A stretch of DNA of 64,000 nt from Bacteroidales bacterium (lineage in GTDB: Bacteria; Bacteroidota; Bacteroidia; Bacteroidales; P3), in the NCBI GenBank assembly GCA_017479385.1, contig JAFVCE010000005.1, positions 111,430 to 175,429 of the forward strand, given 5' to 3'. A program made the position numbers and the translations under genes. Shown one piece after another: positions 8,330 through 61,985 of this stretch. Below the pieces are notes generated by a model. That model did no database searches. It saw only the letters and a list, made by a program, of their open reading frames with translations, and was not told the origin of the DNA. The first letter of the stretch is position 1; every line of letters starts with the position of its first letter.

Positions 8330-8417
8330 CTAACTGTCTGATTGTCAAGCCTTGTTCGACCTCAATACGACCCTAACCCCTCTTTAACAGGTCTGAAGTG
8401 CTAATTTTGAGGCAGTT
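8330..8417 (-). repeat. 11-bp phased intergenic element, copy A
   Basis: Read on the minus strand, four consecutive 11-base units end the core (8384-8394, 8373-8383, 8362-8372, 8351-8361; the last two read GGTCGTATTGA and GGTCGAACAAG). They are followed by a TTGACAATCAGACAGTTAG end at 8330-8348. The distal end reads GTAACTGCCTC. It lies in the gap between the converging T9SS type B gene and tex. Confidence 0.8.
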
Positions 8418-10545
8418 ACACACCCTTCATGCTGAGGCTTATGCGGTGTCGGCGCAGGTCGACCTCGAGCACCTTCACGTGTACATATTGGTGCAGGTGT
8501 ACCACCTCGGCAGGGTCGCTCACGCGGCGGTTCGAGAGCTGGCTGATGTGTACCAACCCATCTTGGTGCACACCCACGTCTACAAAAGCGCCAAAGGCCG
8601 TGATGTTGGTCACAATGCCGGGCAGCACCATGCCCTCGCGCAGGTCTTCGAGGCGCGACACGTTTTTGTCGAATTCGAACACTTCGAACTTGGCGCGTGG
8701 GTCCAGACCGGGCTTGTCTAACTCCTTCATTATGTCTTGCAGGGTGGGCAGGCCGCAGTCGTCGGTCGCGAAAGCGGCTATATCAATCTTACGGCGCTTC
8801 TCGGCGCTGGCCATCAGGGTAGCCACGTCGGTGCCAATAGAGCGGGCCATACGCTCCACAAGGGCGTAGCGTTCGGGGTGAACGGCACTGCGGTCGAGCG
8901 GGTCGGTCGATTCGCGCACGCGCAAAAATCCGGCACATTGCTCAAAAGCTTTGGCACCCAGGCCTTTAACGTCGTTCAGAGCCATGCGCGAGCCGAAGGC
9001 GCCATTGCGGTTGCGGTGAGCCACAATCTTGTCGGCCAAGGCAGGCCCAATGCCGCTCACGTAGCTCAACAGCTCGCGCGAGGCGGTGTTCAGCTCCACT
9101 CCCACCGAGTTGACGCAGCTCTCAACCACGTCGGCCAGGCTGTGTTGCAGCATGGTTTGGTCCACGTCGTGCTGGTATTGGCCCACGCCAATGCTTTTGG
9201 GGTCAATCTTCACCAACTCGCTCAAGGGGTCCATCAGGCGACGCCCAATCGATACCGCGCCACGCACTGTGACGTCGTAGTCCGGAAACTCGCGGCGTGC
9301 CGCGTCGCTGGCGCTGTAGACCGAGGCGCCGGCTTCGCTCACCATGACGGCTATCAGCTTCTGTTTGAAGTGGCAACGCTGCACAACCTCCTCGGTTTCG
9401 CGGCCAGCAGTGCCGTTACCAATGGCAATGGCTTGAATGTGGAATGCCTCGGCCAGTGCTTCGAGTTTGGCAATGGCAGCGCGCTCTTCGCGCACCGAGC
9501 TGAAGGGGTAGATTGTCTCGTTGTGTAGCAATGCACCCTGTGCGTCGAGACACACAATCTTGCATCCGGTGCGAAATCCAGGGTCTATGGCCATTACGCG
9601 CTTCTGCCCCAGAGGCGGGGCCAGCAGCAGCTGGCGCAGGTTCTCGGCAAACACGCGTATGGCTTCGCGGTCGGCTTTCTCTTTAAGCAGGTTGTATTGC
9701 TCGTTTTCGATAGAGGGTTCGATTAGTCGTTTGTACCCATCGCGAATGGCCATGGCCACCTGGGCGGTGGCTGGGCTGTTGCCGCGCAGGTATTGGCGGT
9801 CGATGGCGGCGAGGGCGTCGTCGCTGGTTTCGGGGCGCACGTGTACGGTGAGCAGCCCCTCGTTTTGGCCGCGGAAGAGGGCCAGAATGCGGTGCGACGG
9901 GGCTTTGGCGGCCGGCTCGTTCCAGTCGAACCACGACTCGTATTTGCCAGCCTCCTCGGCTTTGTTGGTAGCAACCTTCGAAGTGAGGCGCGCAGTGCGG
10001 CCAAAAATGTTGCGCACGCGGTTGCGCACTCGGGTGTCCATACTTACGCGCTCGGCAATAATGTCGCGCGCGCCGGCAAGGGCCTCGTCGGTGTTGTTCA
10101 CCCCCTTTTCGCTGTTCACAAAACTGGCAGCCCATTGCTCCACATCGCCGGCGGCTTGTTCCAACAGCCTGTCGGCCAGTGGCGTGAGGCCTCGCTCGGC
10201 GGCCACGCTGGCACGCGTCTTGCGCTTGGGCCTGTAGGGTAGGTAGAGGTCCTCGAGCTCGGTCATGGTGCGAGCTTCGGCAATGGCTCGGCGCAGGTCG
10301 TCGGTCATTTTGCCTTGCTGTTCGATAGAGGCCACGATGGCTTCGCGACGCTTGTCTACCTCTTTCAGACGCAGCAACAGGTCGCGTATGGCGGCAATCT
10401 GCACCTCGTTGAGCGAGCCGGTGGCTTCCTTGCGGTAGCGGGCTATGAAAGGCACCGTGGCGCCCGATTCGAGCAGTTCGATGGTGCGGCTCACCTGGTG
10501 TTGGCCCAGGTTCAGTTCTTCGGCGATGATGGTTGCATAATTCAT
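8416..10545 (-). CDS. tex: Tex-family RNA-binding transcription accessory protein
   Basis: A 709-residue Tex/YhgF homologue, close to the usual 720-780 residues. Domains in order: N-terminal helical Tex region, YqgF/RNase H-like domain beginning at VMAIDPGFRTG (Asp321), helix-hairpin-helix region (LSYVSGIGPALADKIVAHR), and C-terminal S1 RNA-binding domain at residues 637-709. The family binds nucleic acid and RNA polymerase-associated complexes; its exact role here is inferred from homology. Its stop lies beside an intergenic repeat, and the next minus-strand gene upstream ends in its own terminator, so it is probably transcribed alone. Confidence 0.95.
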   Translation of the reverse strand: MNYATIIAEELNLGQHQVSRTIELLESGATVPFIARYRKEATGSLNEVQIAAIRDLLLRLKEVDKRREAIVASIEQQGKMTDDLRRAIAEARTMTELEDLYLPYRPKRKTRASVAAERGLTPLADRLLEQAAGDVEQWAASFVNSEKGVNNTDEALAGARDIIAERVSMDTRVRNRVRNIFGRTARLTSKVATNKAEEAGKYESWFDWNEPAAKAPSHRILALFRGQNEGLLTVHVRPETSDDALAAIDRQYLRGNSPATAQVAMAIRDGYKRLIEPSIENEQYNLLKEKADREAIRVFAENLRQLLLAPPLGQKRVMAIDPGFRTGCKIVCLDAQGALLHNETIYPFSSVREERAAIAKLEALAEAFHIQAIAIGNGTAGRETEEVVQRCHFKQKLIAVMVSEAGASVYSASDAARREFPDYDVTVRGAVSIGRRLMDPLSELVKIDPKSIGVGQYQHDVDQTMLQHSLADVVESCVNSVGVELNTASRELLSYVSGIGPALADKIVAHRNRNGAFGSRMALNDVKGLGAKAFEQCAGFLRVRESTDPLDRSAVHPERYALVERMARSIGTDVATLMASAEKRRKIDIAAFATDDCGLPTLQDIMKELDKPGLDPRAKFEVFEFDKNVSRLEDLREGMVLPGIVTNITAFGAFVDVGVHQDGLVHISQLSNRRVSDPAEVVHLHQYVHVKVLEVDLRRHRISLSMKGV

Positions 10546-10578
10546 GCTGCAAATTTACGAATTATTTTCCGATTGGCC

Positions 10579-10615
10579 AAAAAAAACTGGTGGCCACACT
10601 CCGGTGCGGCCACCA
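10579..10615 (-). terminator. Terminator of the Omp28-like gene
   Basis: On the minus strand the stem TGGTGGCC / GGCCACCA (10608-10615 with 10588-10595) is followed by eight T (10586-10579). It ends transcription from the gene at 10646-12565 before tex. Confidence 0.8.
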
Positions 10616-10645
10616 ATGGGGGCTGTTTGCCTGATGTACAGGACG

Positions 10646-12565
10646 TTATTTCTTGACGAATTTCTGAACGCTAATGCCACTTTCGGTGGTCACACGCAGG
10701 ATGTACATACCAGCGGTCAGGTTCTTGGTGCCGATGGTGTTGGTGGCCTGCTTGGTGTCGATAACGGTGCGGCCGGCGAGGTCCATAATCTCAAGGCGGT
10801 TCACTGTTTCGCCACAATCAATGCGCAACTCGTCGCACACTGGGTTGGGGTAGACGCTCAGCGTCGTGGCGTTGGCAGCAGCCTCAATGCCATCCATACG
10901 GCCAGTGCCGTTGGTGGTCACGTTGAGGTAGTAGGTGGCCTCGCTGCCAAAATTGCCGCTGTTGGTGAAGATGTAGTTACCTTCGCCGTCGCGCAGGCGG
11001 AAGCCCTTGTTGCCGTCGCCATACGAGTCGTAGACCGAAAGGATGTAGAGGCCAGCCTCGGCGGGGTCGAAGTTGAAGTAGATGGCTTTCGAGTTGCGGT
11101 TCTCGTCGTTGTCGAATGGGCCGTCTTCGAATATCACCGAGCAGTCGCTCTGTTTGCGGAACTTGACGGTGGTTTCGGCACCATATTGGTCGAGCACGAG
11201 GTGCAGGTAGAAGGGGCCGGGGGCTGTATAGACGTTGATGAGGTCGACTTTGGTGCGGCCGCCTTCGTTCTCGATGTAGGAGAACTCGTTGGTGTCGATG
11301 GTCATGCTGTAAATGCCGTAACTGGAGTCGATAACGGTAATCGAGGCTATCTCAGAGCTGTCGGCAGTGGCGGGGATGGTGGCCGAGGTGTAGCTCGTGT
11401 CGCCTTCGTAGATGGTGTAGAGGGTGTCGATACGCAGGGTGTCGGTGATGGTGGTATCGAGGGTGTAGGTGGTGTCGTATTGCGGAGCGTTGAAGAGGCG
11501 GGTCATTTTGGTGATGGCAGCCTCGGCATAGTAGTTGGCGCTGCCAGTGGGAGCTGTCTCGACGGCGTAGTTGGGCAGGTAGATGGTGTCTGTCGTGTTG
11601 GGTTCGAGGGTGTCGGTAACAAGCAGCGTATCTGCAACTCCGGTATAGGTGTAGGGGATGGTGATGTCGGTTACGCGTTCGTTAGACATATTGGAAACCA
11701 CGAAGTAGGGGGCGAAGCTGATGTCGCAGTCGCTCTTTTCGACCTTCAGCTCGTCGGCGTAGCAGCCGTAGTAGGTCATTTCGGCGTTGCAGCCGGTGAG
11801 GATTTCTTGTTTGCCTTGGGCAATGAAAGCGACCACTTTGAGGTCGGGAGCCTTCATTGCGACGTTGCTAATCTTGTCGGGGATTTCGTAGCTGTAGTGG
11901 CGCGAGACGAAGGTGCCAGCGGTGGTTTGGTGGATGGTGTCGCCCCACTGTCCGGTGACGAGGTCGCGCAGCATGTGGTTGTGGCGGTAGAGGTTGCCAA
12001 CCATCATTTCGGGGTAGAAGTTGGTGGCTCCAACCTGCGGGCCGAGGATGTTGTCTTGCAGAATGGCCACGTTGAGCATATTGGGGCTGGTGGCCGAGTT
12101 GCTGGTGTAGTAGACCTCGACGTCGATTTCTATCGTGCGGGTGAAGAAGTCGACGTAGGCTTTGGCGGCCACGTTGACGGGCGAGTCGAGGCCCATAATG
12201 GTGTTGGCCGACGAGCGGAACTGGTTGCGTTGCAGTGCGGTCTTGCTGCCGCTGAAGACGTGGCGGTTCACCGTGCCGGCGGGGTAGCCGGTGAGGCCGG
12301 TTTGGTTGGCAATGGCGTCGCCCCAACGAGTGGTGTAGGCGGCGGCGTAGCTACCTTGGTGGATGTTGATGGCCGAAATGCGACCTGGGAAGTCGGCAAT
12401 GATTTGGTTCACAATTTTGTGACCGTCGGGGCAGTAGGTGCAGTTAACGCCCGTGAACTCTTCGATAACCACATTGCGCTTTTGTGCTGTGGTGTCGACA
12501 AAGGTCTGCGCCATACCCATGGTGGCGAGGGCCAGTGTGGTGGCAAAGAATAGGATTTTCTTCAT
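10646..12565 (-). CDS. Omp28-related thioredoxin-fold secreted protein, T9SS type A
   Basis: A 639-residue secreted protein. The signal peptide begins MKKILFFATTLALATMGMAQ. Next comes an Omp28-like domain with EEFTGVNCTYCPDGHK, a thioredoxin-fold CxxC (CTYC), and GYPAGTVNRH. The end carries LSVYPNPVCDEL and GMYILRV, a type A sorting signal. The frame is open 26 codons further upstream, but that ATG (12643) lies inside a -7 box on this strand (TATATTTG, 12648-12641). The start at 12565 is therefore chosen. Omp28 relatives are outer-surface proteins in Porphyromonas; disulfide activity is possible but not shown. Confidence 0.85.
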   Translation of the reverse strand: MKKILFFATTLALATMGMAQTFVDTTAQKRNVVIEEFTGVNCTYCPDGHKIVNQIIADFPGRISAINIHQGSYAAAYTTRWGDAIANQTGLTGYPAGTVNRHVFSGSKTALQRNQFRSSANTIMGLDSPVNVAAKAYVDFFTRTIEIDVEVYYTSNSATSPNMLNVAILQDNILGPQVGATNFYPEMMVGNLYRHNHMLRDLVTGQWGDTIHQTTAGTFVSRHYSYEIPDKISNVAMKAPDLKVVAFIAQGKQEILTGCNAEMTYYGCYADELKVEKSDCDISFAPYFVVSNMSNERVTDITIPYTYTGVADTLLVTDTLEPNTTDTIYLPNYAVETAPTGSANYYAEAAITKMTRLFNAPQYDTTYTLDTTITDTLRIDTLYTIYEGDTSYTSATIPATADSSEIASITVIDSSYGIYSMTIDTNEFSYIENEGGRTKVDLINVYTAPGPFYLHLVLDQYGAETTVKFRKQSDCSVIFEDGPFDNDENRNSKAIYFNFDPAEAGLYILSVYDSYGDGNKGFRLRDGEGNYIFTNSGNFGSEATYYLNVTTNGTGRMDGIEAAANATTLSVYPNPVCDELRIDCGETVNRLEIMDLAGRTVIDTKQATNTIGTKNLTAGMYILRVTTESGISVQKFVKK

Positions 12566-12640
12566 AATTGAATTGTTGTTTTTGTTTAACATCTTGTTAT
12601 TCTGTGCTTTGCAGATTTTAGGTTTCTCTTTTATCCAATG

Positions 12641-12648
12641 CAAATATA
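12641..12648 (-). promoter_or_regulatory. -7 box for the Omp28-like gene
   Basis: TATATTTG on the minus strand, 76 bases upstream of the ATG at 12565. No clean TTTG is found 19 bases further upstream, so only the -7 element is claimed. Confidence 0.5.
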
Positions 12649-12738
12649 CTCATTTTTTATTATTTTTTTACTTTTTTTTGTTTTTTTTACAATATTTTTC
12701 ATTTTGTTGCGTTATTAATGCTGAAAATGATTTTGAAA

Positions 12739-13335
12739 ATGAAGAAGTTTGCGATTGTTGCCTTGATGGCATGTTTAACCTCGGTCGGTTTCGCCCAGCA
12801 GGTGAGTTCGCGCGCCAAAGCTATGCGCATGATGACCTACAGCCGCCCCGAGTATCAGGTTAAGGACATTAAAGTTTATACCGATACGATGACGGTCTAC
12901 ACTTTGGCCGACTATGTTATTTACCCCGTTGGCAAGTGGAGCTCGATTGAGCAGTATATTACTGACAATCAACTGCAATGGTACCGTGAGGTGGGCTACA
13001 AGGCCTACTTCGATTCGATGTCGGTCTCGGTCAACACCATGAAGCGCCTCGACGGCAGTTTTCTTGATATGTATTACAGCATTTGGACCAAGCGCGTCGA
13101 GCTGCTTGGCGGCAAGATTACCGACCCCGAGGTGGTGCTCGACAATGGGGTGCACGTCGGTATGCGTAAAGACGACGTGTTCAAGGTCTTCTTCAAACGT
13201 TACCCCAAGTCCTACACGGCCGACGTGGCGGTGCTCAAGGTGATGTCGGCTGCCGGCGAGGTGGCCGAGATTTACACCTTTAAGGGCGACAAGCTGCGCC
13301 ATGTCCAAATCGTTACGCGATACAAATATTATTAG
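12739..13335 (+). CDS. Secreted protein of unknown function upstream of nadD
   Basis: I do not recognise this protein. It has about 198 residues and opens with a signal peptide (MKKFAIVALMACLTSVGFAQ). The frame is open seven codons further up, but the ATG at 12739 gives the best signal peptide. The mature part is charged and compact, with no cysteine-rich or repeat region. It ends 16 bases before nadD on the same strand, suggesting co-transcription. Confidence 0.75.
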   Translation: MKKFAIVALMACLTSVGFAQQVSSRAKAMRMMTYSRPEYQVKDIKVYTDTMTVYTLADYVIYPVGKWSSIEQYITDNQLQWYREVGYKAYFDSMSVSVNTMKRLDGSFLDMYYSIWTKRVELLGGKITDPEVVLDNGVHVGMRKDDVFKVFFKRYPKSYTADVAVLKVMSAAGEVAEIYTFKGDKLRHVQIVTRYKYY

Positions 13336-13351
13336 CAGCCGCTCACAGCTG

Positions 13352-13951
13352 ATGAAGCTCACAGGCCTCTTCTTCGGCTCGTTCAACCCCATACACGTGG
13401 GGCACATGATAATAGCCAACACCATGCTCGCCACCGGTGGGCTCGACGAGGTTTGGCTCGTGGTCTCGCCCCAAAACCCATTCAAACAGCGCGCCACGCT
13501 TTTGGCCGACCATCACCGCCTCGAGATGGTGCGCCGTGCAGTCGACGACAACTACCGCCTGCGTGCTTGCGACGTCGAGATGCGCCTCCCACGACCCTCC
13601 TACACTTCGCTCACCCTCGCCCACCTCTCCGAACTTTACCCAACGCGCAGCTTTTGCCTCATTATGGGCGAAGACAACCTGGCCTCGTTCGACCGTTGGC
13701 GCAATGCCGACCACATTCTGGCCAACTATCGCCTCATGGTCTATCCGCGCCCCGGCAGCCACAATTGCCCGCTCGCTTCTCACCCCAACGTCACCATGGT
13801 CCAGACCCCGATGATGGACATCTCGTCCAGCTACATCCGCGCCCAGATTGCCGCCGGCCACGACGTGCGTTACCTGCTCACCGAGCCGGTCTATACCTAC
13901 CTCACCGAAATGCACTTCTACGAGCCAAAAAAGCCGCTCCTAAATGCTTGA
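13352..13951 (+). CDS. nadD: Nicotinate-nucleotide adenylyltransferase
   Basis: NAD biosynthesis enzyme that joins nicotinate mononucleotide and ATP to give deamido-NAD. It has 199 residues, the normal NadD length. The nucleotidyltransferase signature GSFNPIHVGHM is at residues 7-17 and the second motif ISSSYIR near residue 165. An upstream ATG at 13301 would overlap the previous gene and add residues before the core strand, so 13352 is preferred. It converges with murF-alr across an intergenic repeat. Confidence 0.95.
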   Translation: MKLTGLFFGSFNPIHVGHMIIANTMLATGGLDEVWLVVSPQNPFKQRATLLADHHRLEMVRRAVDDNYRLRACDVEMRLPRPSYTSLTLAHLSELYPTRSFCLIMGEDNLASFDRWRNADHILANYRLMVYPRPGSHNCPLASHPNVTMVQTPMMDISSSYIRAQIAAGHDVRYLLTEPVYTYLTEMHFYEPKKPLLNA

Positions 13952-14033
13952 AAATCAGGACTTGGGTCGTGTTAAAGAGGGGTTAAGGTCGTATTGAGGT
14001 CGAACAGGCATTGATATTCAGACAGTTAGCACC
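13950..14033 (+). repeat. 11-bp phased intergenic element, copy B
   Basis: Four consecutive 11-mers at 13965-14008 (GGTCGTGTTAA, AGAGGGGTTAA, GGTCGTATTGA, GGTCGAACAGG) are followed by TTGATATTCAGACAGTTAG. A related TGAAAATCAGG lies on the other side. It lies in the gap between converging nadD and murF-alr. Confidence 0.85.
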
Positions 14034-14112
14034 CCAAAAAATACCCTCCCCAGGCCGACTTCCACTCGATGGTGAGCCGACCCGTGGGCCTGTCGTCAGC
14101 CTCTTTTGGGGG

Positions 14113-16605: not shown

Positions 16606-16775
16606 GGTCAGTACTTTTTTATAGTATACATTTATTTATAGTGTCGAGCTTGCGCCACCTGTGGGCACAAACTCTTCAAAACAATAACGTAAATTCGACG
16701 TAAATATTACGCGTCGAGGCACATTTTTTTTGCGACTTTTATCGCCCCTTAGCCTAAACGCCTCTGGTTCAGTGC

Positions 16776-17147
16776 TCACATCGGGTTGTGAATCAGCCAG
16801 CGACCGTCGCGGCGACGCAACGCCAAGCTGTCGGTAAAATTCTTCAGTGGGGTACGCTTGTGGTAGCACACCGTTGCCGTCGTGTCGTCTGTTATCGTTG
16901 TGCGCAGCAAGCTCAATTGGGCGGGCCTGTCGCTCGCCGTGTAGGTGCTGTCTACATCAACCATCAAATTCCGTGCCACAACCATAGTTGTGCTGTCGGT
17001 TTCGGGTGTTACGTAGTGCCTGGCAGCCTCGATGTCGTAGGCCGAAGTGTGCACAAGATACTGGTAGGCGCTTCGCTCCACCGCGGCGCGGTTGCTACAC
17101 GAGGCCATTGTCAGCCCCACGGCTACTACTATCAGGCTCTTTTTCAT
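16776..17147 (-). CDS. Small lipoprotein, left copy of duplicated gene 3
   Basis: A 123-residue lipoprotein with lipobox TMASC near residue 17. The upstream open frame adds only 12 residues and spoils the signal peptide, so 17147 is used. The mature part (YQYLVHTSAYDIEAARHYV, then VCYHKRTPLK and DGRWLIHNPM) matches the plus-strand gene at 19593-20072 (RGYLEAVANYHFEEAAAYA, VPYHKSTPIV, EGQWLARV). The fold resembles small NTF2-like/DUF4878 lipoproteins, which is an inference. It is the outermost gene of the left arm of an inverted duplication and is preceded by a terminator. Confidence 0.75.
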   Translation of the reverse strand: MKKSLIVVAVGLTMASCSNRAAVERSAYQYLVHTSAYDIEAARHYVTPETDSTTMVVARNLMVDVDSTYTASDRPAQLSLLRTTITDDTTATVCYHKRTPLKNFTDSLALRRRDGRWLIHNPM

Positions 17148-17162
17148 TCTTTGATTGGGGTC

Positions 17163-17644: not shown

Positions 17645-18223
17645 TTACTTGTTAAGTTGTATGGTGCGCCACTTGGCGTTCTCGAGGTTAATGTTGACGT
17701 CGGTAATCATTGATTCATTAATGTTGCTGTCGTTATCAAGATAGGCTTGACGGTCGTAGACTTGAGCCTCGACAGTTGCGCTGATGGTGCTGTTCGAGAG
17801 GTCTATAGCGCTGATGGTATGTTTCGTGCTGTAGGGCTGGTGGCGAGGATAATATTTATAAGTTGCCGGATCGAGTATGTAGTCGTTAGTGTCGGCAATG
17901 TAGAGCAGGTAGTATCCGTTGTTGTTATAGGTGTAGGTACCGATGGAGGTGCCGAAATTCATTTCGACCATGGGGTCATTGTCGTTGTCGCTTTTGTAAA
18001 GAAGGCCAGTCAGAACGCCATTCTTCGCGGCTGCGCCAAAGTCGGTAACATTCCATGTGTCCAAACCGTAGGTAACGGTAGCTACACTTTTGGCGGGGGT
18101 GGGGTTGTTGCCACTGTTGTCGCCGTTGTCATTGTTGTCATCATTACCTTCTTTGCCACAAGAGGCGAGAAGCATGGTGCTTGCAATCAGGGCTACGCCC
18201 ATGAGTTTAAAGATGTTTTTCAT
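17645..18223 (-). CDS. Secreted lipoprotein, left copy of duplicated gene 1
   Basis: A 192-residue lipoprotein with lipobox LLASC followed by GKEG and an Asp/Asn-rich linker. Its first 18 residues (MKNIFKLMGVALIASTML) are identical to those of the gene at 18517, and so is the DNA around both starts. The rest has diverged (weak match STISATVEAQVYD / TMRFSANIACSMF). The open frame continues 21 codons upstream, but the shared start region fixes the ATG at 18223. It ends 12 bases before gene 2 on the same strand. Confidence 0.75.
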   Translation of the reverse strand: MKNIFKLMGVALIASTMLLASCGKEGNDDNNDNGDNSGNNPTPAKSVATVTYGLDTWNVTDFGAAAKNGVLTGLLYKSDNDNDPMVEMNFGTSIGTYTYNNNGYYLLYIADTNDYILDPATYKYYPRHQPYSTKHTISAIDLSNSTISATVEAQVYDRQAYLDNDSNINESMITDVNINLENAKWRTIQLNK

Positions 18224-18292
18224 TGTGTTTTTTGTTTTGGTTAATAAAATATTGTTTCGTTTTAAAGTTGTACTTTTCAGGCTCAAAATTAC
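18171..18292 (-). repeat. Left arm of inverted repeat at the divergent centre
   Basis: Read on the minus strand, this arm runs from ATTTTGAGCCTGAAAAG through TTATTAACCAAAAC, the start codon, and on to GCAAGCACCATGCT. It is nearly base-for-base the same as 18445-18569 on the plus strand. It covers leader, start and signal-peptide codons of gene 1. Confidence 0.85.
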
Positions 18293-18444: not shown

Positions 18445-18569
18445 AATTTTGAGCCTGAAAAGCACAACTTAAGAAAATTGAATAAAAATATTTATTAACC
18501 AAAAACAAAAAACACAATGAAAAACATTTTCAAACTTATGGGCGTAGCCCTGATTGCAAGCACCATGCT
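18445..18569 (+). repeat. Right arm of inverted repeat at the divergent centre
   Basis: Plus-strand partner of 18171-18292, with the same GAGCCTGAAAAG start, the same A-rich leader and the same first 18 codons. The 152-base spacer between the arms is AT-rich and holds a plus-strand -7 box TACTTTTG at 18433-18440, with GTTG 19 bases upstream. Confidence 0.85.
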
Positions 18570-19104
18570 TTTCGTCGCTTGTGGCAAAGAAGGTGAAGAA
18601 GAAAACACTGGTGATGACAACACCACTGGTGGCAACGACACCCCGACTTACACCCTCTCTGTGGCTGCTACTCTCGGCACTGCCACTCTCGATGTAAACG
18701 AGTACGACTATATGGGTGCTGCTGGCGACACAAACGTCGGTATGATTGCCAAGCGTTTCGAGGGCGAAAACTTCTACTTCCCCGGATTCTACTTCTACGT
18801 TGCCGGTCTTTCGAAAGAAACAGCTACCTGTACCAATATCGACCTCTATGTTGAGACATATTATACAGTAGGTAGCTATTCTTATGGCGACTGGCAATAC
18901 AACGATGGTATGAACACAGAGGTGACAGTGCTCGACCCCACCACCATGCGCTTCTCGGCCAACATTGCTTGCTCGATGTTCAGTCTTACTGATTACAGGA
19001 ATTTCTACCAAGAGCATGATGAGGACGAAGACCCCGTAATGGGTACAGACGTTGAGGTCAGAAACTTCAGCACCTCTATTGCCAATGTTTATCTGAAAAA
19101 ATAA
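18517..19104 (+). CDS. Secreted lipoprotein, right copy of duplicated gene 1
   Basis: A 195-residue lipoprotein (lipobox LFVAC, then GKEG, then a Glu/Asp/Thr-rich linker). Its N-terminus is identical to that of the divergent gene at 18223. The C-terminal part is Tyr/Phe-rich and beta-like, without a family I recognise. It is first of three plus-strand genes that mirror the three minus-strand genes on the other side; the next gene follows after 21 bases. Probably transcribed from the box at 18433-18440. Confidence 0.75.
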   Translation: MKNIFKLMGVALIASTMLFVACGKEGEEENTGDDNTTGGNDTPTYTLSVAATLGTATLDVNEYDYMGAAGDTNVGMIAKRFEGENFYFPGFYFYVAGLSKETATCTNIDLYVETYYTVGSYSYGDWQYNDGMNTEVTVLDPTTMRFSANIACSMFSLTDYRNFYQEHDEDEDPVMGTDVEVRNFSTSIANVYLKK

Positions 19105-20145: not shown

Positions 20146-20177
20146 AAAATCAGTTATTTGTGTAAATAACTGATTTT
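20146..20177. terminator. AT-rich perfect hairpin
   Basis: Perfect 14-bp stem AAAATCAGTTATTT / AAATAACTGATTTT with loop GTGT. The T-run within the right arm suits a terminator for the plus-strand genes. It overlaps the border of intergenic element copy C, whose end is itself TGATTnnTCAG-like. Confidence 0.6.
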
Positions 20178-20252
20178 TAGTGTGTTAAATGGGTTGTGGT
20201 CGTATTAAGGTCGTATTAACATCGGGTTGACATCGAACCCTGTTCGAACGCC
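20162..20252 (+). repeat. 11-bp phased intergenic element, copy C
   Basis: Five consecutive 11-mers at 20198-20252 carry TCG at the same phase: GGTCGTATTAA twice, CATCGGGTTGA, CATCGAACCCT, GTTCGAACGCC. The left border GTAAATAACTGATTTTTAG matches that of copy F. It sits between converging genes. Confidence 0.8.
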
Positions 20253-30553: not shown

Positions 30554-31069
30554 TTATTGTACCGTGAGATAATATATAAGTATAGCGCGCGTGGGCACAC
30601 GGTCGCCGTCGCCAACAACGCCATAGGCTTGCTCCGAGGGCAGAATTATTGTGGCTTGGCTGCCGTGGCGCAGGTGCCGTACGGCTACATCGAGCCCCCT
30701 TACCGTTTGGCCACGGCCTGCAACGAATGTCTCGCTGTGTTGGTCGTAGATGACGACACCGTTGATGGCCTCGAGTCGGTAACTGACGCTGACGGTATCT
30801 TCGTAGTCAATGGCGCCGCCGGTGCCGCGTTTGGTTTCGAGTAGCCTAACGCCACTTCCGAGGGTTTGCATGGTCCAGCCGCGACGTTCGATATACGACA
30901 CAATCTGTTGCTCCTCGCTCTTGGCCATGTAGCGGTTGGCGTTGATGAGGTTCTCTTTGAGCGAGGGTTCGGCCGTGCGCTCGGTGTCGATGACTGGAGT
31001 TTGGTGGCAGGCCGCAAAGAGCAGGGCGATTGCAGTTGCAGTGAGGAGTATGATAATGGGTCTTCTCAT
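30554..31069 (-). CDS. GldI-like FKBP lipoprotein
   Basis: A 171-residue lipoprotein (lipobox LFAAC) with one FKBP-like domain: DTVSVSYRLEAINGVVIYD, RGLDVAVRHLRHGSQATIILPSEQAYG, and PTRAILIYYLTV. The small size and N-terminal arrangement resemble GldI, a lipoprotein needed for gliding and T9SS function in flavobacteria; this subfamily call is tentative. It overlaps the DHH phosphoesterase as ATGA and lies 50 bases from the next FKBP gene. Confidence 0.85.
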   Translation of the reverse strand: MRRPIIILLTATAIALLFAACHQTPVIDTERTAEPSLKENLINANRYMAKSEEQQIVSYIERRGWTMQTLGSGVRLLETKRGTGGAIDYEDTVSVSYRLEAINGVVIYDQHSETFVAGRGQTVRGLDVAVRHLRHGSQATIILPSEQAYGVVGDGDRVPTRAILIYYLTVQ

Positions 31070-32118
31070 CGGCTGGCGACGTATTGGGTTAGTTTCTCGA
31101 CGGTTTCGGCAAGGGGTAGGGTGGAGGTGGCACCCGCGGCTTTGCGATGACCACCGCCACCAAAAAGTTGGCGCGCAATGCTCTCTACGTCAGTATGTTT
31201 GGAGCGGAGTGAGACCTTGCAACGCTGCTTCTCTTCGCGGATGAGGGCGCCAAACTCGATGTCGGACATCAAGGTGGTGTAGTTCACCAGTCCATCCATG
31301 TCCTCATACCCAACGCCAAAGTGGCGCTGAACATCGAGCGAGATAGCAAAATAGGCAAAGTGCTGTTCGGCCATAACTGTTAGGCAATTGCTTATGGCGT
31401 AGCCGTAGAAGCGCAAGCGGCGTTCGCTAAAGATGTTGACTATGCGGTTATTGATTTCGGCGGGGTCTATGCCTGTGCCTATGAGCATAGCCGCAGCGTG
31501 GTAGAGCGACGGCTGAGTGTTGCTGTAGGCAAAGCCACCAGTGTCGGTTCGCATACCAGTATAGAAGCAGGTGGCAGCTTCGCTGCCGATGGCTTGGGCA
31601 CCCCAAAGAGCTTCGACCAGCCAGGTGGCCAACTCGCAGGTGCTCGAAATAGTGTGGTCTGAAATGATGGTCTGGAATGCGGCCTGGTCTGGCGAGATGT
31701 GGTGGTCGACCAGGATTTTGTGCCCAGTGGCCTGCGTAAAGGGCTGAGCCAGATTGTCGAGTCGCGATGGGGTGTTTAGGTCGAGCACAAAAATCATGTC
31801 GGCCTCGGCCAGCGCCTGGCAGCAACGTTCGCGCTCGCTCTCGCCGCTCAAAATCAGTGCCGCGCCGGGCATCCATTCAAATTGACGTGGGCATCCTTGA
31901 GGCAGCATTGGGGTGAGGTTAAGGTCGGGATAAAGTCGACCAAGTACTGACATCAAGCCCGTTACGGCCCCAACCGCGTCGCCGTCGGCGTGGGTGTGAG
32001 CCGTCAGCACAACTCGCTTGGCATTGTCTACCATAGCCTTAATGTGGCATAGCAAACCAACTGCAAATTCGGGTTTGCTGCTGAGAGCCAATGATTTATG
32101 TTGCATTTCGGTTGTCAT
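31066..32118 (-). CDS. DHH-family phosphoesterase (NrnA-like)
   Basis: A 350-residue DHH/DHHA1 phosphoesterase, most like NrnA, which degrades short oligoribonucleotides and dephosphorylates pAp. Metal-binding motifs: TAHTHADGDAVGA near residue 40, FVLDLN, and the DHH triad in ILVDHHISPD near residue 135. The DHHA1 end carries GGGHRKAAGA. The open frame begins with a TTG at 32130, but ATG 32118 is a better start. It heads the minus-strand operon with the two FKBP genes and adk. Confidence 0.93.
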   Translation of the reverse strand: MTTEMQHKSLALSSKPEFAVGLLCHIKAMVDNAKRVVLTAHTHADGDAVGAVTGLMSVLGRLYPDLNLTPMLPQGCPRQFEWMPGAALILSGESERERCCQALAEADMIFVLDLNTPSRLDNLAQPFTQATGHKILVDHHISPDQAAFQTIISDHTISSTCELATWLVEALWGAQAIGSEAATCFYTGMRTDTGGFAYSNTQPSLYHAAAMLIGTGIDPAEINNRIVNIFSERRLRFYGYAISNCLTVMAEQHFAYFAISLDVQRHFGVGYEDMDGLVNYTTLMSDIEFGALIREEKQRCKVSLRSKHTDVESIARQLFGGGGHRKAAGATSTLPLAETVEKLTQYVASR

Positions 32119-36842: not shown

Positions 36843-36934
36843 CCTAACTGTCTGATTATCAATGCCTGTTCGACCTCAATACGACCCAAACCCCTCCTTA
36901 ATACGACTTCAACCTTGATAATCAGGTTGTTACA
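36843..36934 (-). repeat. 11-bp phased intergenic element, copy D
   Basis: The most complete copy. Read on the minus strand it starts GTAACAACCTGATTATCAA and has four 11-base units (36908-36865, including GGTCGTATTGA and GGTCGAACAGG). It ends TTGATAATCAGACAGTTAG. The two ends are imperfect inverted repeats of each other. It lies in the gap between converging genes. Confidence 0.85.
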
Positions 36935-39135: not shown

Positions 39136-39138
39136 GAC

Positions 39139-47179: not shown

Positions 47180-47262
47180 TGCTAACTGCCTCAACATCAA
47201 GGCTTGTTCGACCTCAATACGACCCTAACCCGACCTTAACACGACCACAGCCCTGTTTTCCA
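47180..47262 (-). repeat. 11-bp phased intergenic element, copy E
   Basis: The clearest phasing. The plus strand reads CTTGTTCGACC, TCAATACGACC, CTAACCCGACC, TTAACACGACC at 47203-47246 with no base between units; on the minus strand each unit starts GGTCG. Border GCTAACTGCCTCAACATCAA. It lies in the gap between converging genes. Confidence 0.85.
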
Positions 47263-47272
47263 ACCACTTATG

Positions 47273-53677: not shown

Positions 53678-53833
53678 ACCACAAAAAAAACGATATTTAT
53701 GCCAAAAAAAATGAAGTTGTGACCGATATTCCATTTTTTTTGTGTAAATTTGCAATGCGATTATTTTTGACAGTTTATTGAAATTAATTACAAATCAATA
53801 TATTAAAATTATCATCTTAAAACAACAAACACC

Positions 53834-55240: not shown

Positions 55241-55282
55241 AAATAATTTATTAGTAGTATAAAATAACCATAACAAACAACG

Positions 55283-57100: not shown

Positions 57101-57320
57101 TCTGCCGAGTTCCGCAAGGGTTCGGTTCGTATTCGTTCGCAAAGAAACCGTTGCTGCGTGCGCCGATATTTGGCTGGTCCAGCAAAAGCAGGGCTCAAGT
57201 GGTTAATGTTGCCAGACTAAGACCAAAAGGCTGCGTGCTGTAGAGCCTCGTAGTATTAAGATTTCTATAATTGTTAACAAAGTTGTTAATAACCCGATGT
57301 GAGGTTCGCTTGTCAATGCT
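57101..57320. other. Non-coding gap before intergenic element F
   Basis: No open frame, tRNA or strong terminator seen. A palindromic TTGTTAACAA followed by TTGTTAATAAC lies at about 57272-57294; a similar TTGTTAATAAC stands just before element C (20121). Confidence 0.4.
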
Positions 57321-57439
57321 CGTAACTCGCTGATTATCAGCACCTATTCGGTGAATTTTGTAACTATTTGATTATCAGTGTTGTAGATGGGTTGTGGTCG
57401 TATTAAGGTCGTATTAACATCGTCCTAACATCGAGTACC
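57321..57439 (+). repeat. 11-bp phased intergenic element, copy F
   Basis: Two border sequences in tandem (GTAACTCGCTGATTATCAG and GTAACTATTTGATTATCAG) precede four 11-mers at 57396-57439: GGTCGTATTAA twice, CATCGTCCTAA, CATCGAGTACC. It resembles copy C in the core. It lies in the gap between converging genes. Confidence 0.85.
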
Positions 57440-57480
57440 CCCAATTCTACCCCCCAGCAAATGCAGTCCTCGCCCTCGTC

Positions 57481-58347
57481 TCAGTCCCCTTGTCGGGTGC
57501 CGAAACAGGCTGCTTGGCACATCCGAGCCGCCTCATCGTCTGGTCGGCAACCCATGGCGAATACGCCGCAAAGCCTCGTCAGCCGCGCAATCATAGTCAG
57601 CCTGTGGTCGGTCATAGCCTCGTCGTAGCGCAGGGCGGGGGGGAGCGAAGGTTCGATGGCTGCTATCGCGTGCAGCATATTGAGCGGCTCTATGCTGTTC
57701 GTGGCGCGCTGGTTAAGCCGCACCAGTGCGCGCAGGGGTAGGCCTATATTGCTGTAGCAGTGTGTTTTGCCGCTCCATGGCGACCCGAACAACTCGGCCC
57801 TGTTTTGGCCAACGCGAAGTATCGGGCTGTCGTCGTTAAGAAGTTTTGTGCCTGCCACATTTTTTAACCATAGCTGTGCGTGCGTACTTTTGCCGGTCCC
57901 CGACTCGCCAAGAAACGCAACAGCTTGGTTCTCAAAGCTAATGCAGGCAGCGTGAACCGGTGCTAACCCTCGCGGAGTGCCGTAGATGCTCATTGCCATC
58001 CATATCAAGAAGCGCAATGCCGAAGGTTCGTCGACGCTGCTTGCCCACGCGTGGCTGTCTGCCTGCCGCAGGGCGTAGAGTTTTCCACCATCGCGCTCCA
58101 TAACGAACACCCTTTCCGTGCCCGTACCATAGTATCGGCAGCTGTATCCACTCTCCTCGAAATCAAACCGATGCAGCGGTTCCTGTTGGGGTATCTCCAC
58201 CGTGTGGCCAAAACTGACCACGAGGTCTGGCTCGCCCGCGGCGACGGCAAAAACGCCGAACCCAGGCAGTCTTGCGAGCAATTCCAGTTCGTGCTCTCCT
58301 TCCACCCCAATGGTGCAACGTGCAATATTGTAGTACCTTACCGTCAT
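57481..58347 (-). CDS. HPr-kinase-like P-loop protein
   Basis: A 288-residue protein related to the C-terminal catalytic part of HPr kinase/phosphorylase. The P-loop GESGTGKSTHAQLW is near residue 151, LLNDDSPIL near residue 178 and GSPWSGK near residue 195. The N-terminal 110 residues are a different beta-rich domain. No PTS HPr gene is nearby. Relatives are often found with peptide-modification genes, but none are visible here. The frame is open to 58428, but a promoter lies between, so 58347 is chosen. Confidence 0.82.
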   Translation of the reverse strand: MTVRYYNIARCTIGVEGEHELELLARLPGFGVFAVAAGEPDLVVSFGHTVEIPQQEPLHRFDFEESGYSCRYYGTGTERVFVMERDGGKLYALRQADSHAWASSVDEPSALRFLIWMAMSIYGTPRGLAPVHAACISFENQAVAFLGESGTGKSTHAQLWLKNVAGTKLLNDDSPILRVGQNRAELFGSPWSGKTHCYSNIGLPLRALVRLNQRATNSIEPLNMLHAIAAIEPSLPPALRYDEAMTDHRLTMIARLTRLCGVFAMGCRPDDEAARMCQAACFGTRQGD

Positions 58348-58370
58348 AGCGTGGCGAAAAAATCCAATTG

Positions 58371-58402
58371 CAAAGATACAAAAAATAATTCGTCCCAGCA
58401 AA
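58371..58402 (-). promoter_or_regulatory. Promoter of the HPr-kinase-like gene
   Basis: On the minus strand TTTG (58402-58399), 20 bases, then TATCTTTG (58378-58371), 23 bases before the ATG at 58347. Confidence 0.7.
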
Positions 58403-58584
58403 AAATTCTCTTCGCCAGACAAAACCATCAGTCCTTAGCGCAAGGTTTCGTCGTTTCGTTTTCGCTCATCGGTTTGAACACTGAGTTTTCCGAATGCTTA
58501 AAATTTTTTTCGCTCATTCGATAAAAAAGTGTATCTTTGTATTTTTATAAAGAACAGGAACAATTATATAAACAGTTGAAAACC

Positions 58585-59454
58585 ATGGATAAACTGATTA
58601 TTACCGCCGCAATTTGTGGCGCAGAAGTAACCAAAGAACAAAACCCCAACGTGCCCTACACCGTCGAGGAAATTGTGCGCGAAGCCAAGTCGGCAGTCGA
58701 TGCAGGCGCCGCCATTGTGCACCTCCATGTGCGCGAGGACGACGGCACCCCGACCCAAAGCCACGTGCGCTTCCAAGAGTGCACCGAGGCCATCCTCAAA
58801 GAGTGCCCCAACGTGATTCTTATTCCCTCGACTGGCGGCGCGGTTGGTATGACCCCCGACGAGCGCCTCGACAGCACCAATACCACCCCCGTGCCCGAAA
58901 TGGCCACCCTCGACTGCGGTACTTGCAACTTTGGCGACGATATTTTCGACAACACCATGCCCACCATGCGCGCTTTTGGCAAACGCATGATTGAGAAAGG
59001 AATCAAGCCCGAATACGAGTGCTTCGAGATGGGGCACCTCGAGACCATTGTCCACATGGCCAAGAAGGGCCAGGTGCCATCTGCTTTCGGCGTGGCCGGC
59101 CCCGACGGCAACCCGCTGCCAATCGTCCCCATGCAGTTCAACTTCGTGCTCGGCGTGCTGGGTTGCGCCACCGCCACGGTCGACAACCTGGTTTGGATGG
59201 TCAACCACATCCCCGCCGGCTCTACCTGGACAGCCACCGGCATCGGCCGCAACGCCTTCACGCTGGCTGCTCCTGCCATCGTGATGGGTGGCAATGTGAG
59301 AGTTGGTTTCGAAGACAACCTCTACCTCGAGCGCGGCGTGCTCGCCAAGAGCAACGGCGAACTGGTCGACAAGGTGGTCCGTATGGCCAAACTGCTTGGT
59401 CGCCCCATCGCCACCAGCGACGAAGCTCGCGAAATTCTCAGTCTGAAACGTTAA
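58585..59454 (+). CDS. kce: 3-keto-5-aminohexanoate cleavage enzyme-like protein
   Basis: A 289-residue BKACE-family protein. Kce converts 3-keto-5-aminohexanoate plus acetyl-CoA to acetoacetate and aminobutyryl-CoA in lysine fermentation. The zinc histidines are in VHLHVRE near residue 48, with GAEVTKEQNPNVPYT at the N-terminus, IPSTGGAVGMT near residue 90, EMGHL near residue 150 and NFVLGVLG near residue 190. Other lysine-fermentation genes are absent here, so the substrate may be another beta-keto acid. A TATCTTTG box at 58532-58539 precedes it and excludes the longer frame from 58537. Confidence 0.85.
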   Translation: MDKLIITAAICGAEVTKEQNPNVPYTVEEIVREAKSAVDAGAAIVHLHVREDDGTPTQSHVRFQECTEAILKECPNVILIPSTGGAVGMTPDERLDSTNTTPVPEMATLDCGTCNFGDDIFDNTMPTMRAFGKRMIEKGIKPEYECFEMGHLETIVHMAKKGQVPSAFGVAGPDGNPLPIVPMQFNFVLGVLGCATATVDNLVWMVNHIPAGSTWTATGIGRNAFTLAAPAIVMGGNVRVGFEDNLYLERGVLAKSNGELVDKVVRMAKLLGRPIATSDEAREILSLKR

Positions 59455-59480
59455 CCCCTCTAACTGAAAAAACTAACACC

Positions 59481-61823
59481 ATGAAAATCAAATCGATAAT
59501 ACTCACCGCGGCAGTGGCCATGCTCGCCACTATGGCCTCGGCTCAAGAACTCTCGCTGTCGCCCGAAATGCGCTCCGCCTACCGCCAACAGTTCCACCAG
59601 CGCGAGCCCGAACAGCAACTCAAGAGCAACATTCCACTCTCTGCCACCGTGCAGAAACCCGGCGTGAAGAGCGTGGCTCAGAAAAATCTCCCCACCGACC
59701 GTGTCTGGTTCCCCGGCGAGTGGGAGGAGGTGAAAGCCATTGTGGTTACACCTTCTTATTATTTCATACCGTGGCCCCAAACAGCCGAGAACCAAAACTA
59801 CATTGCCGACCCAATAGTGTCTCACTACGCTGAATATCAGACCTATAGTCGCTTCACCGGCTGGCAAAGCACTGGCCAATATGGCGACTATTATGGCATT
59901 ATGGACACTACCGACAACCTGGTGCCTTTCTACCTGATGGACGCCATCCAGCAAGGCAACGCCGAGGCTTGGGTGCATGTGGAGCGCAAAGCCGACAGTC
60001 TTATCGTTCTCCGCACGCTCGAACGCAACAACCTGCGCCACGACAATGTGCGTTTTCTTGTTGGCCCGAGCAACTCGTTCTGGTATCGCGACTGCGGCCC
60101 GATTTGCTTCTACTACGGCTCTGAAGACAGCGTGGCTATGCTCGATTTCGAATACTACACCGGTCGTGCCCTCGACGACAGCCTGCCCTCGCTCATTCAT
60201 CACACCATGGGTATTCCCAACTACATCACCACCATCGAGTGGGAGGGTGGCAACTGCCTTGTCGACGGCGTAGGCATGGTCCTTTCGAGCGACCAAATCT
60301 ATGTCGGCAACCGCGACCAATATGGCCAGTACACTTGGGATGGACGCGACTACAACACCCTTTCCTATACCCGCAAGACCCCTCTCTCGGATGTTCAAGT
60401 CAAGAACGCCCTGAAGTCGCTCCTCGGCCAGCGTGTCACCTACATCCTGCCGGCCTATAGAAACGACGGCGGCACCGGCCACATAGACCTCTACGTCGAT
60501 ATGTGGGACGAGAACTCGTTCGTTTTCAGTAAGATGCCTTCGACGTATAGTTCGTGGGTCGACTACCGCACTGGCAATCGCAACATCGATTCGCTCTGCT
60601 CCTACAGCTCGTTCTTCGGCCGCAAATATGGCAAAAGCTATATCCCGTTCCCCTCGAAAAACAACGGTCAGAACTTCAGCAGCGCCTCCGATTATGAGAA
60701 CTACACTCGTACCTACTCGAACCACACATTCGTCAACAACCTCATCATCCAGCCCTGCTTCTCGCGTGTGGATGAATCCGGTATGCCTACCGCTGCGTGG
60801 GACAAGGCCAATATCGAAAAACTAAAGGAGGCCTATCCTGGCTACACCATCTATTGCGTCGACGTTACCTCCTTCGACGGCTATGGCGGCGCCATCCACT
60901 GCATCACCAAGCAGATACCGGCCGACAACCCCATCCGCATTCTGCACAAAAACGTCAACGGTTGCGCCAACGACCTCAACGCCCTGGGCGAGGATGTGCC
61001 CGTGAGCGCCATCATCACCAACAAGAGCGGCATCGATACCGCTACCTGCACCTACCGCGTGGCTGGCGGCGCGTGGCAAACCGTGGGCCTGACCGCCAAC
61101 GGCAACCGTTTCTTTGGCGCTATCCCACACGTCGAGTCCAACTTCCCCCACACGGTTATCGACTCCGTCCCCGTCTATACCCCCATCGATACACTGATGA
61201 CTGTCGATACCGCCTACAACGCTGATTCGTCGGTTGTTACCTACGACACTACCTACACCTATACCTACGACACTACCTTCACATTCGACACCAATACTGT
61301 CCTCGCAGACACCACTATCACAATCGAATACTACCTCACTGCCACCAGCAACAACGGCAAAACCATCACCAAGCCAATGACCGCTTCTCAAGGCGGCTAT
61401 TTCAGCTACTACGTGACCAACTATGCCGACACCATCCAGACCGTCGATAGCACGCTCTACGATTTCGACACCACCGCCATACCAATGGAGGACATCACCT
61501 TCCTCTTCAGCACAGATTGGACCGAGACCGACAACAGCGAGCCTGTGGGCATCGACCAAGTGGCCGCCACCGACGATAACTTCGGTCAGTTCTTCCCCAA
61601 CCCCAGCAACGACAAGGCCAACCTCCAAATCGACCTCGGCAACGGCGCCAACTACGTCGTGACCATTGTCGACATCAACGGCCGCACTGTCCATACCAGC
61701 TCGCTCCAAGCTGAGGGGCAAATAACCTACACAATCAACACCTCTAAGCTCGCTGCGGGTGTCTACCACGTCATCTTTGCCAACGAGGGCAGCAACGTTG
61801 TTCGCCGCCTCGTGGTTCGCTAA
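59481..61823 (+). CDS. Secreted PPAD-like arginine deiminase with T9SS type A domain
   Basis: A 780-residue exported enzyme of the agmatine/peptidyl-arginine deiminase family. Signal peptide MKIKSIILTAAVAMLATMASAQ; a propeptide-like region to about residue 80; the catalytic domain to about residue 490; an Ig-like domain with Thr/Asp-rich insert (about 500-690); and a type A sorting domain (FFPNPSNDKANLQIDL to the end). The active-site set matches Porphyromonas PPAD by motif: Asp204 in WYRDCG, His334 and Asp336 in TGHIDLY, Asn419 in VNNLII, Cys474 in AIHCITK. The frame is open far upstream but that part overlaps kce in another frame. It follows kce after 26 bases. Confidence 0.9.
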   Translation: MKIKSIILTAAVAMLATMASAQELSLSPEMRSAYRQQFHQREPEQQLKSNIPLSATVQKPGVKSVAQKNLPTDRVWFPGEWEEVKAIVVTPSYYFIPWPQTAENQNYIADPIVSHYAEYQTYSRFTGWQSTGQYGDYYGIMDTTDNLVPFYLMDAIQQGNAEAWVHVERKADSLIVLRTLERNNLRHDNVRFLVGPSNSFWYRDCGPICFYYGSEDSVAMLDFEYYTGRALDDSLPSLIHHTMGIPNYITTIEWEGGNCLVDGVGMVLSSDQIYVGNRDQYGQYTWDGRDYNTLSYTRKTPLSDVQVKNALKSLLGQRVTYILPAYRNDGGTGHIDLYVDMWDENSFVFSKMPSTYSSWVDYRTGNRNIDSLCSYSSFFGRKYGKSYIPFPSKNNGQNFSSASDYENYTRTYSNHTFVNNLIIQPCFSRVDESGMPTAAWDKANIEKLKEAYPGYTIYCVDVTSFDGYGGAIHCITKQIPADNPIRILHKNVNGCANDLNALGEDVPVSAIITNKSGIDTATCTYRVAGGAWQTVGLTANGNRFFGAIPHVESNFPHTVIDSVPVYTPIDTLMTVDTAYNADSSVVTYDTTYTYTYDTTFTFDTNTVLADTTITIEYYLTATSNNGKTITKPMTASQGGYFSYYVTNYADTIQTVDSTLYDFDTTAIPMEDITFLFSTDWTETDNSEPVGIDQVAATDDNFGQFFPNPSNDKANLQIDLGNGANYVVTIVDINGRTVHTSSLQAEGQITYTINTSKLAAGVYHVIFANEGSNVVRRLVVR

Positions 61824-61845
61824 ACAATTGCAAAAAACAACATTC

Positions 61846-61884
61846 AAATCGGCGTTACCAATCATGGCGACGCCGATTTTTTTT
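61846..61884 (+). terminator. Terminator of the deiminase gene
   Basis: Ten-base stem AAATCGGCGT / ACGCCGATTT with a 14-base loop, followed by a run of T. Confidence 0.85.
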
Positions 61885-61899
61885 CTCCCGTTAACCCAC

Positions 61900-61985
61900 T
61901 CAAAATGAGCATTAAGCACGGGTTAAAGTGGGGTTAAGGTCGTATTGAGGTCGAACAAGGCCTGATATTGAGGCGATTAGACACC
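61900..61985 (+). repeat. 11-bp phased intergenic element, copy G
   Basis: Four 11-mers at 61916-61959 (GCACGGGTTAA, AGTGGGGTTAA, GGTCGTATTGA, GGTCGAACAAG) followed by CTGATATTGAGGCGATTAG. The only copy between two genes in the same direction. Confidence 0.8.

Follow-up and report, generated by a model that had tools for sequence, protein, structure and literature searches.

What would place the same short array of 11-bp units in one gap after another between converging genes? The question is raised by the window, the whole stretch of 64,000 nucleotides of a Bacteroidales genome that was analysed here. An earlier note on this DNA had described seven copies of a dispersed element, and had considered insulation of converging transcription, chromosome structure, termination and a REP/MITE-like mobile origin. 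The copies were followed through the window's genome (G000) and through relatives labelled G157, G176, G002, G035 and so on. The main new result is a spacing rule: there is about one site per 9 kb, and sites are seldom closer together than about 4.5 kb. Similar sites with other unit sequences in some related species hint that bacterial chromosomes may be marked or organised in a manner not yet described.

Architecture of the copies in the window

All seven copies were recovered where they had been reported. They aligned in register and scored 75-87 bits (Table 1) against nhmmer profiles trained on copies from a sample of the same genome, the window's seven included; the best matches in a reversed-sequence control had E values of 1.3 and 4.7. 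Each of the six convergent gaps in the window whose genes do not overlap holds one copy, the seventh copy lies in a tandem gap and no full copy is found in divergent or short tandem gaps. The earlier description stands in these respects, but it had missed a weak array inside a DHH-family gene (31066-32118, minus strand). Rfam gave no match in the window at the gathering threshold, and literature searches, covering titles and the beginnings of abstracts, returned no published description that we recognised as this element.

Table 1. Copies and weak array in the window, with positions, strand and profile score.
Feature	Type	Positions	Strand	Location	Score (bits)	Remark
Copy A	1	8330..8417	-	convergent gap	79.7	
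Copy B	1	13945..14030	+	convergent gap	87.0	
Copy C	2	20150..20250	+	convergent gap	77.2	
Weak array GGTTAA-GGTCGGGATAA-AGTCGACCAAG		31897..31969	+	in gene	20.2	
Copy D	1	36843..36934	-	convergent gap	78.8	
Copy E	1	47180..47268	-	convergent gap	78.1	
Copy F	2	57321..57439	+	convergent gap	79.0	extra left arm
Copy G	1	61896..61985	+	tandem gap	75.2	

The window copies have two architectures in one 11-bp register, which is continuous through each element and made up of GGTCGTATTRA and its variants, usually with inverted ends. Type 1 (the copies first reported at 8330, 13950, 36843, 47180 and 61900) covers about 88 bp, or eight units, running from an end TAACTGCCTGAAAATCAG through the units to an inverted end. 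Its unit kinds are GGTCGTATTAA, AGAGGGGTTAA, GGTCGTATTGA and GGTCGAACAAG, as given by column counts over 29 copies which were selected by the exact core GGTCGTATTGAGGTCGA, so that those columns are fixed by the selection. Type 2 (first reported at 20162 and 57321) carries inverted arms in its left part, followed by an array finishing in CATCG units; in copy C two inverted arms are followed by the array GGTCGTATTAA-GGTCGTATTAA-CATCGGGTTGA-CATCGAACCCT. The first TAA of copy A is the stop codon of a tex-like gene (8416-10545), and copy G begins, by its profile match, 69 bp past the stop of the upstream gene. The 11-bp phase is also kept in copies beyond the window.

The direct array is the most conserved part of the element (its central columns being fixed by the selection of copies). 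The inverted ends are imperfect, and TA stands at each edge of the element. Pairing between the type 1 ends over 49 copies equals the prediction from independent columns. Since there is no covariation, these ends look like conserved inverted motifs and not like a selected stem, and an RNA hairpin formed by them was rejected on the same grounds. In G157, 20 of 50 left parts fold at z below -3 (median -1.73, mononucleotide shuffles). Ordinary hairpins adjoin copies A and C of the window, as judged by eye.

Placement and spacing along the chromosome

The genome to which the window belongs (2.28 Mb) contains 216 exact matches to the core GGTCGTATTRANRTCG and none to its reversed pattern. Placement and synteny were counted in 838 kb of this genome (including 38 kb of contig C3 that were later excluded) and in 602 kb of the sister species G157. 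Gene gaps were taken from a home-made ORF caller, with approximate gene calls, and matches above 40 bits were counted as full copies. This threshold and the others used (15 bits, gap lengths of 80 and 150 bp, distances of 4.4-4.5 kb) were set after a first look. Convergent gaps of at least 80 bp held a full copy in 43 of 61 cases (33/44 in G157), tandem gaps of at least 150 bp in 22 of 113 (13/64) and divergent gaps in 3 of 69 (1/56). Full copies were absent from tandem gaps below 150 bp (0/388 and 0/277) and from convergent gaps below 80 bp (0/6 and 0/8), and two full copies never shared a gap in either sample. The enrichment at convergent junctions proposed from the window holds in both samples. 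One tandem gap below 150 bp in the window's genome carries a weak array.

Full copies in tandem gaps begin 13-326 bp past the upstream stop (48-130 bp in G157). Their G-rich strand is the sense strand in 15 of 22 cases in the window's genome and in 2 of 13 in G157, and the idea of a Rho site (a C-rich strand with an 11-nt phase) was dropped, since it is not the same strand that faces the transcript in the two species. The orientations of neighbouring sites are random (51/96 alike), which led us to reject a polar chromosome motif of the KOPS or Chi kind. Where orthologous 3′ ends face a convergent gap in the window's genome and a tandem gap in G157, 13/16 have a full site in the former and 4/16 in the latter; for ends with the opposite arrangement the counts are 2/16 and 11/16. 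Therefore, the site tracks the geometry of the gap more than the gene. Gene adjacency was retained at 2 of 40 gene sides facing gaps that bear the element, against 58 of 139 sides facing element-free convergent, divergent or tandem gaps of at least 80 bp (Fisher's test with sides treated as independent, p = 3.0e-6). This may reflect recombination at the sites, or simply the breaking of genomes at operon ends.

Spacing was analysed in 877.6 kb of clean sequence from the window's genome (38.5% of the genome), using sites of at least 15 bits and merging matches less than 500 bp apart into one site. The part of contig C3 below 98 kb was left out of this set after its lack of sites had been noticed. 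It also has a lower GC content and second copies of core genes present in contig C5 (which we take, from their translated starts, to be typA- and serA-like); by these two criteria alone it is judged a very likely contaminant. A 44-bp minisatellite lies at C3:98100-98440.

The clean set holds 101 sites: 53 in convergent, 27 in tandem and 4 in divergent gaps, 15 in genes and 2 at contig edges. Their mean spacing is 8.7 kb with a coefficient of variation (CV) of 0.478, compared with a null CV of 0.862 (minimum of 5000 draws, 0.601) when the same numbers were redrawn from the same gap classes and the in-gene and edge sites were placed at random. Spacings below 4.4 kb make up 5 of the 96, against a null mean of 35.3 and a minimum of 22 in 5000 draws; 6 of the 96 exceed 15 kb. 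The 62 sites of G157 have a CV of 0.432 (uniform null 0.916). Moreover, convergent gaps without a site tend to lie beside one. Nine of the 11 empty convergent gaps are within 4.5 kb of another site, compared with 3 of the 53 occupied gaps (Fisher's test, p = 4.0e-7), and in G157 the corresponding counts are 6/7 and 5/34. An intrinsic terminator that marks each end of transcription regardless of its neighbours was rejected on these counts. A set with C3 60-98 kb included and C2 left out gave 92 sites with a CV of 0.45; in it, 7 of 12 empty convergent gaps lay near a site, compared with 2 of 49 occupied gaps. These two species, the window's own and G157, are the ones in which the spacing rule was tested well. 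Control DNA (G002, G035 and the contaminant stretch) gave no profile match of at least 12 bits in 495 kb; weak matches are therefore not a product of genus-wide codon bias.

All 15 in-gene sites are weak (under 40 bits), being arrays without full-length matches. None lies within 4 kb of a strong site, compared with 59% of random positions (p = 1.3e-6), and three have a different weak site less than 4 kb away. After the control scan and this analysis of positions, the view that in-gene arrays, including the one at 31.9 kb in the window, are chance matches was dropped; the array at 31.9 kb agrees with the spacing rule. The earlier note had held that copies inside genes would speak against a tie to convergent junctions; such arrays do exist, and the enrichment at convergent junctions stands beside them. 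That the element exists primarily because of convergent transcription is not supported, in view of the closeness of empty convergent gaps to other sites and the 15/101 sites in genes.

Comparison of individual genes between species shows arrays kept at the same codons. In a gene which we take to be folC-like from its Mur-ligase-like start, the window's genome, G157 and G176 carry arrays at one coding position, each in its own variant and longest in the window's genome; a protein alignment shows no array in nine other members of the genus. In a presumably GH2-like gene, identified by recognition only, GGTCGTATCAACATCG in the window's genome corresponds to GGTCGGGTCAACATCG in G157 at the same codons and without an indel, and the TA/GG difference in dialect turns SYQHR into SGQHR. 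The array of a glycosyltransferase-like gene is a 22-aa in-frame insertion relative to G157. The DHH array of the window has no counterpart in the DNA of G157 and G176, to which it aligns without an indel. One of the three in-gene sites of G157 could be compared with the window's genome, where the array is absent. These comparisons show that some genes keep their arrays as DNA sequence, and that arrays arise both by substitution and by local duplication.

Unit dialects in related genomes

A looser pattern, GGTCGNNTTRANNTCG, was found 310 times in the window's genome, 99 times in G157 and 37 times in G176, where about one third of the matches looked coding by eye. The remaining 117 of the 120 genus genomes gave 0-4 matches (reversed control 0-3), and among 295 genomes of the order the window's genome alone stood out from background, with 0-5 matches in the others and at most 6 in the reversed control. 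By Tex identity among full-length matches, the nearest two genomes are again G176 and G157 (82% and 81%). The main unit of G157 is GGTCGGGTTRA. Of the 29 stretches listed as matching in the genome collection, 27 came from G157, the MAG 'Bacteroidales bacterium isolate RUI415', and two from unrelated bacteria. A viral origin was set aside after a search with one pattern gave no exact match in viral contigs.

Other members of the genus carry arrays of other units. Exact 7-mer repeats at lag 11 number 102.5 per 100 kb in G002 and 95.8 in the contaminant stretch, compared with 6.5-12.6 at lag 10 or 13; in the 200 kb of G035 examined, the lag-11 enrichment is absent (11.5 per 100 kb). Two unit families taken from G002 and the contaminant stretch, dissimilar in sequence to GGTCGTATTRA, were counted across the genus. 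Pairs of TTCTTCAGTNG were found in 11 of 120 genus genomes, with 237 in G128, 293 in G136, 199 in G025, 32 in G161 and 11 in G137; all seven in G000 belong to the contaminant stretch. Pairs of TTGTTGTCCGN were likewise found in 11 of 120 genomes (G002 66, G166 37, G083 21, G061 8, G142 7). These are counts of matches and not of sites, with several matches per site, and the reversed controls of both patterns gave none. GGTCGTATTRA, TTCTTCAGTNG and TTGTTGTCCGN have no common core. The sequence of the unit changes between clades and the period of 11 is kept.

Spacing was also analysed in these dialects. Among the TTCTTCAGTNG matches listed for G128, G136, G025 and G161, the smallest of 28 neighbour distances is 7.1 kb (p = 2e-5 under exponential spacing, with only sites of two exact units visible). 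The seven sites of the contaminant stretch are evenly spaced (CV 0.20, 5/5000). In G002 evenness by itself is not significant (871/5000) and the minimum distance is unusual (171/5000). The G002 evenness and the missing 11-bp enrichment of G035 count against extending the rule to other species. In the stretches examined, arrays of the other dialects are often inverted pairs, and only 1/11 and 1/7 lie in convergent gaps. Several unit families coexist in G002. Units of 7, 8 and 10 bp also form arrays in the genus, so that 11 bp is not its sole period, and several 20-kb stretches from the genus lack an 11-bp array.

Possible role of the sites and comparison with known systems

A density of one in ~9 kb, few distances below ~4.5 kb, and placement where no harm is done or, if needed, within a gene indicate that each site serves its neighbourhood. 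The 11-bp register and the clade-wise change of units suggest that something reads the units and co-evolves with them; we infer that this is a protein, that it binds as an oligomer and that the sites have a function. The reading we favour, with a probability of about 0.4, is that the arrays are bound across the chromosome by a putative oligomeric protein that co-evolves with them, and that the range of each site is a few kb. They would form a kind of chromosome ruler with a mark every ~10 kb and a minimum of ~4.5 kb, whose units are replaced wholesale between clades along with the protein and which overrides coding sequence where needed. Each marker would be a short array with one 11-bp unit per helical turn, on which the predicted sequence-specific DNA-binding protein would sit head to tail over several units. 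Contact with one unit per turn, as the earlier note had it, is still the most natural reading. Each site would serve roughly 4-7 kb of DNA on both sides; a second site nearby would be superfluous, and a long site-free stretch would be filled, if necessary inside a gene. Gaps between converging genes would be preferred because an array there breaks neither promoters nor operons. The lack of an orientation rule among neighbouring sites is what a non-polar site would give. The likeliest job would be chromosome organisation, in which the sites would tether or delimit supercoil domains of ~10 kb or deal with the supercoils that transcription generates. The several unit families of G002 fit a single reader protein badly. 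Further points against the favoured reading are the few spacings below 4.4 kb or above 15 kb, the three in-gene sites with a weak neighbour, the results for G002 and G035, and the arrays with other periods. Evenly spaced sites that differ in sequence from species to species but keep their period and spacing would make domain borders, or an equally broad system of long-fragment exchange, directly testable, as such sites can be listed, deleted and used for pull-down, and the dialects would be natural replicates of a DNA site and its recognising protein in rapid evolution.

DNA uptake or transfer would account for most of these observations; we rank it second, as the main competitor, and consider it unlikely. 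The arrays would be 'self' tags by which long fragments are taken up, or packaged into transfer particles, more often, and they would spread by biased transfer; since one tag per fragment suffices, even spacing and exclusion would follow. The clade-specific variants, the presence in genes, the preference for gene ends and the absence from the contaminant stretch all resemble uptake sequences. However, the sites are ~9 kb apart instead of the 0.4-1.1 kb given in PMC7371117, and where an uptake sequence is one 12-mer, each site here is an array of several units. The dialects are without a common core, whereas the eight neisserial dialects described share CTG, and the several unit families of G002 count against such tags as well. 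Three further explanations, namely termination, simple transposition and neutral minisatellites, are each contradicted by one test or more. The placement in convergent gaps, the position of tandem copies shortly after a stop and the folding of left parts in G157 would suit a bidirectional terminator or an insulator of converging transcription, an improbable explanation given that empty convergent gaps cluster near other sites, that sites occur in genes and that the type 1 ends lack covariation. The difference in transcript-facing strand between the species and the hairpins already beside copies A and C argue in the same direction.

A mobile element with target immunity, that is, a transposase avoiding ~4.5 kb around an existing copy, has a comparably small chance of being correct. 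Transposition of Mu and Tn7 shows such exclusion near existing copies, which the spacing here resembles, and the inverted ends with flanking TA, the dispersal and the restriction to one clade are as expected of it. Against it, the DHH and GH2-like coding arrays align to their sister genes without an indel, the folC-like position is common to three species and none of the 15 in-gene matches is full-length. A search restricted to the Y1_Tnp family (PF01797) found none in G000 (complete by the tool's estimate) or G157, one match in G176 and matches in 7 of the 10 genomes searched. A RAYT-type REP was rejected on this result and on the type 1 ends, whose lack of covariation speaks against a stem-loop palindrome as the conserved core. 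A simple MITE was likewise rejected on the coding arrays without indels, and the mobile origin suggested in the earlier note is further opposed by the single copy per gap, the ends without covariation and the missing Y1_Tnp. The 22-aa insertion in the glycosyltransferase-like gene and the longer folC-like array of the window's genome run counter to this rejection. The same insertion, the arrays with units of 7, 8, 10 or 11 bp in several members of the genus and the 44-bp minisatellite on C3 are what neutral minisatellites growing by slippage and drift would leave. Such repeats would not account for a single sequence family spread over 101 sites in 878 kb, nor for the even spacing, the exclusion and the arrays kept at coding positions common to several species, and as an explanation they are very improbable.

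To our knowledge, neither a sequence-marked even spacing along a chromosome nor a fixed, sequence-marked set of supercoil-domain borders has a precedent. The DUS and USS of Neisseriaceae and Pasteurellaceae are alike in being hundreds to thousands of dispersed sites, some in genes, with clade dialects (PMC7371117) and with hairpin pairs at gene ends (PMC7811141). They differ from the 11-bp arrays, which have ~1 site per 9 kb, a minimum of ~4.5 kb and no core common to the dialects. REP/BIME elements with their RAYT (Y1) are described in PMC3733652 as dispersed, mainly in convergent or unidirectional gaps and partly in genes, and are there proposed as gyrase targets; they are palindromes of 20-40 bp, in contrast to direct 11-bp arrays, one per gap and evenly spaced. 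The BrickBuilt MITE of Porphyromonas gingivalis shares the order Bacteroidales, a limitation to a species, tandem short units and small inverted-repeat ends. However, PMC4596501 gives it 23-nt units and 19 copies, always intergenic, whereas the arrays here have 11-bp units and 101 evenly spaced sites in 878 kb, 15 of them in genes. The same 11-bp period is known as a genome-wide periodicity or as phased A-tracts, which some have linked to supercoiled packaging (PMC4132750 and PMC1242344), a link disputed in PMC7537859. That periodicity is a genome-wide statistical bias, whereas the arrays are discrete and stand at spaced sites. The strong gyrase site of phage Mu, according to PMC3820752, is like the sites proposed here in acting on kilobases of neighbouring DNA. 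There is one such site per Mu prophage. PMC3820752 also gives E. coli 400-500 supercoiled domains, and therefore about 10 kb for each.

A probable foreign stretch in contig C3

Contig C3 of the window's own genome (G000) begins with a long stretch that is very likely derived from a contaminating species or a chimeric join. The GC content is lowered (0.44-0.51) and no arrays of 11-bp units in the dialect of this genome, i.e. its clade's own unit sequence, were found there. Moreover, the stretch carries second copies of typA-like and serA-like genes, the others being found in contig C5, together with 11-bp arrays of another dialect (unit TTCTTCAGTYG).

Near the border of this stretch lies a large minisatellite of ~340 bp (C3:98100-98440). 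Each of its 44-bp repeats is composed of four 11-mers: GGTCGTATTAA, GGTGCTGTTAA, CATCGGGTCAA and GGAGTGGTTAA.

Features of the window and of contig C3
Feature	Location	Details
Inverted repeat	window 18096-18256 and 18484-18644	arms 161 nt, 81% complementary; spacer 227 nt
Protein with Porphyromonas-type peptidyl-arginine deiminase domain (PF04371) and type IX secretion tail	window 59019-61823	
Low-GC stretch	G000 C3:1-~95000	loci L238-L240, L125-L126

Arrays and other repeats in the genus

One array is present, with shared flanking sequence, in both of the sister species G157 (C7:47100-47139) and G176 (locus L212); the genes on either side of the G157 copy resemble rplJ and rplL.

Long hairpins whose arms are built of 11-bp repeats with TGTAC-type units (e.g. 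TTGTACAATAT, TGTACGGTATT) were observed at loci L060, L064, L075, L079 and L269, and are similar across several species of the genus other than that of the window. Many tandem arrays with units of 7, 8 or 10 bp (e.g. GTGAATT, GGGAGTGAAA) were also seen in 20-kb samples from three genus members (L265 of G052, L272 of G057 and L269 of G116), some of them less than 2 kb apart.
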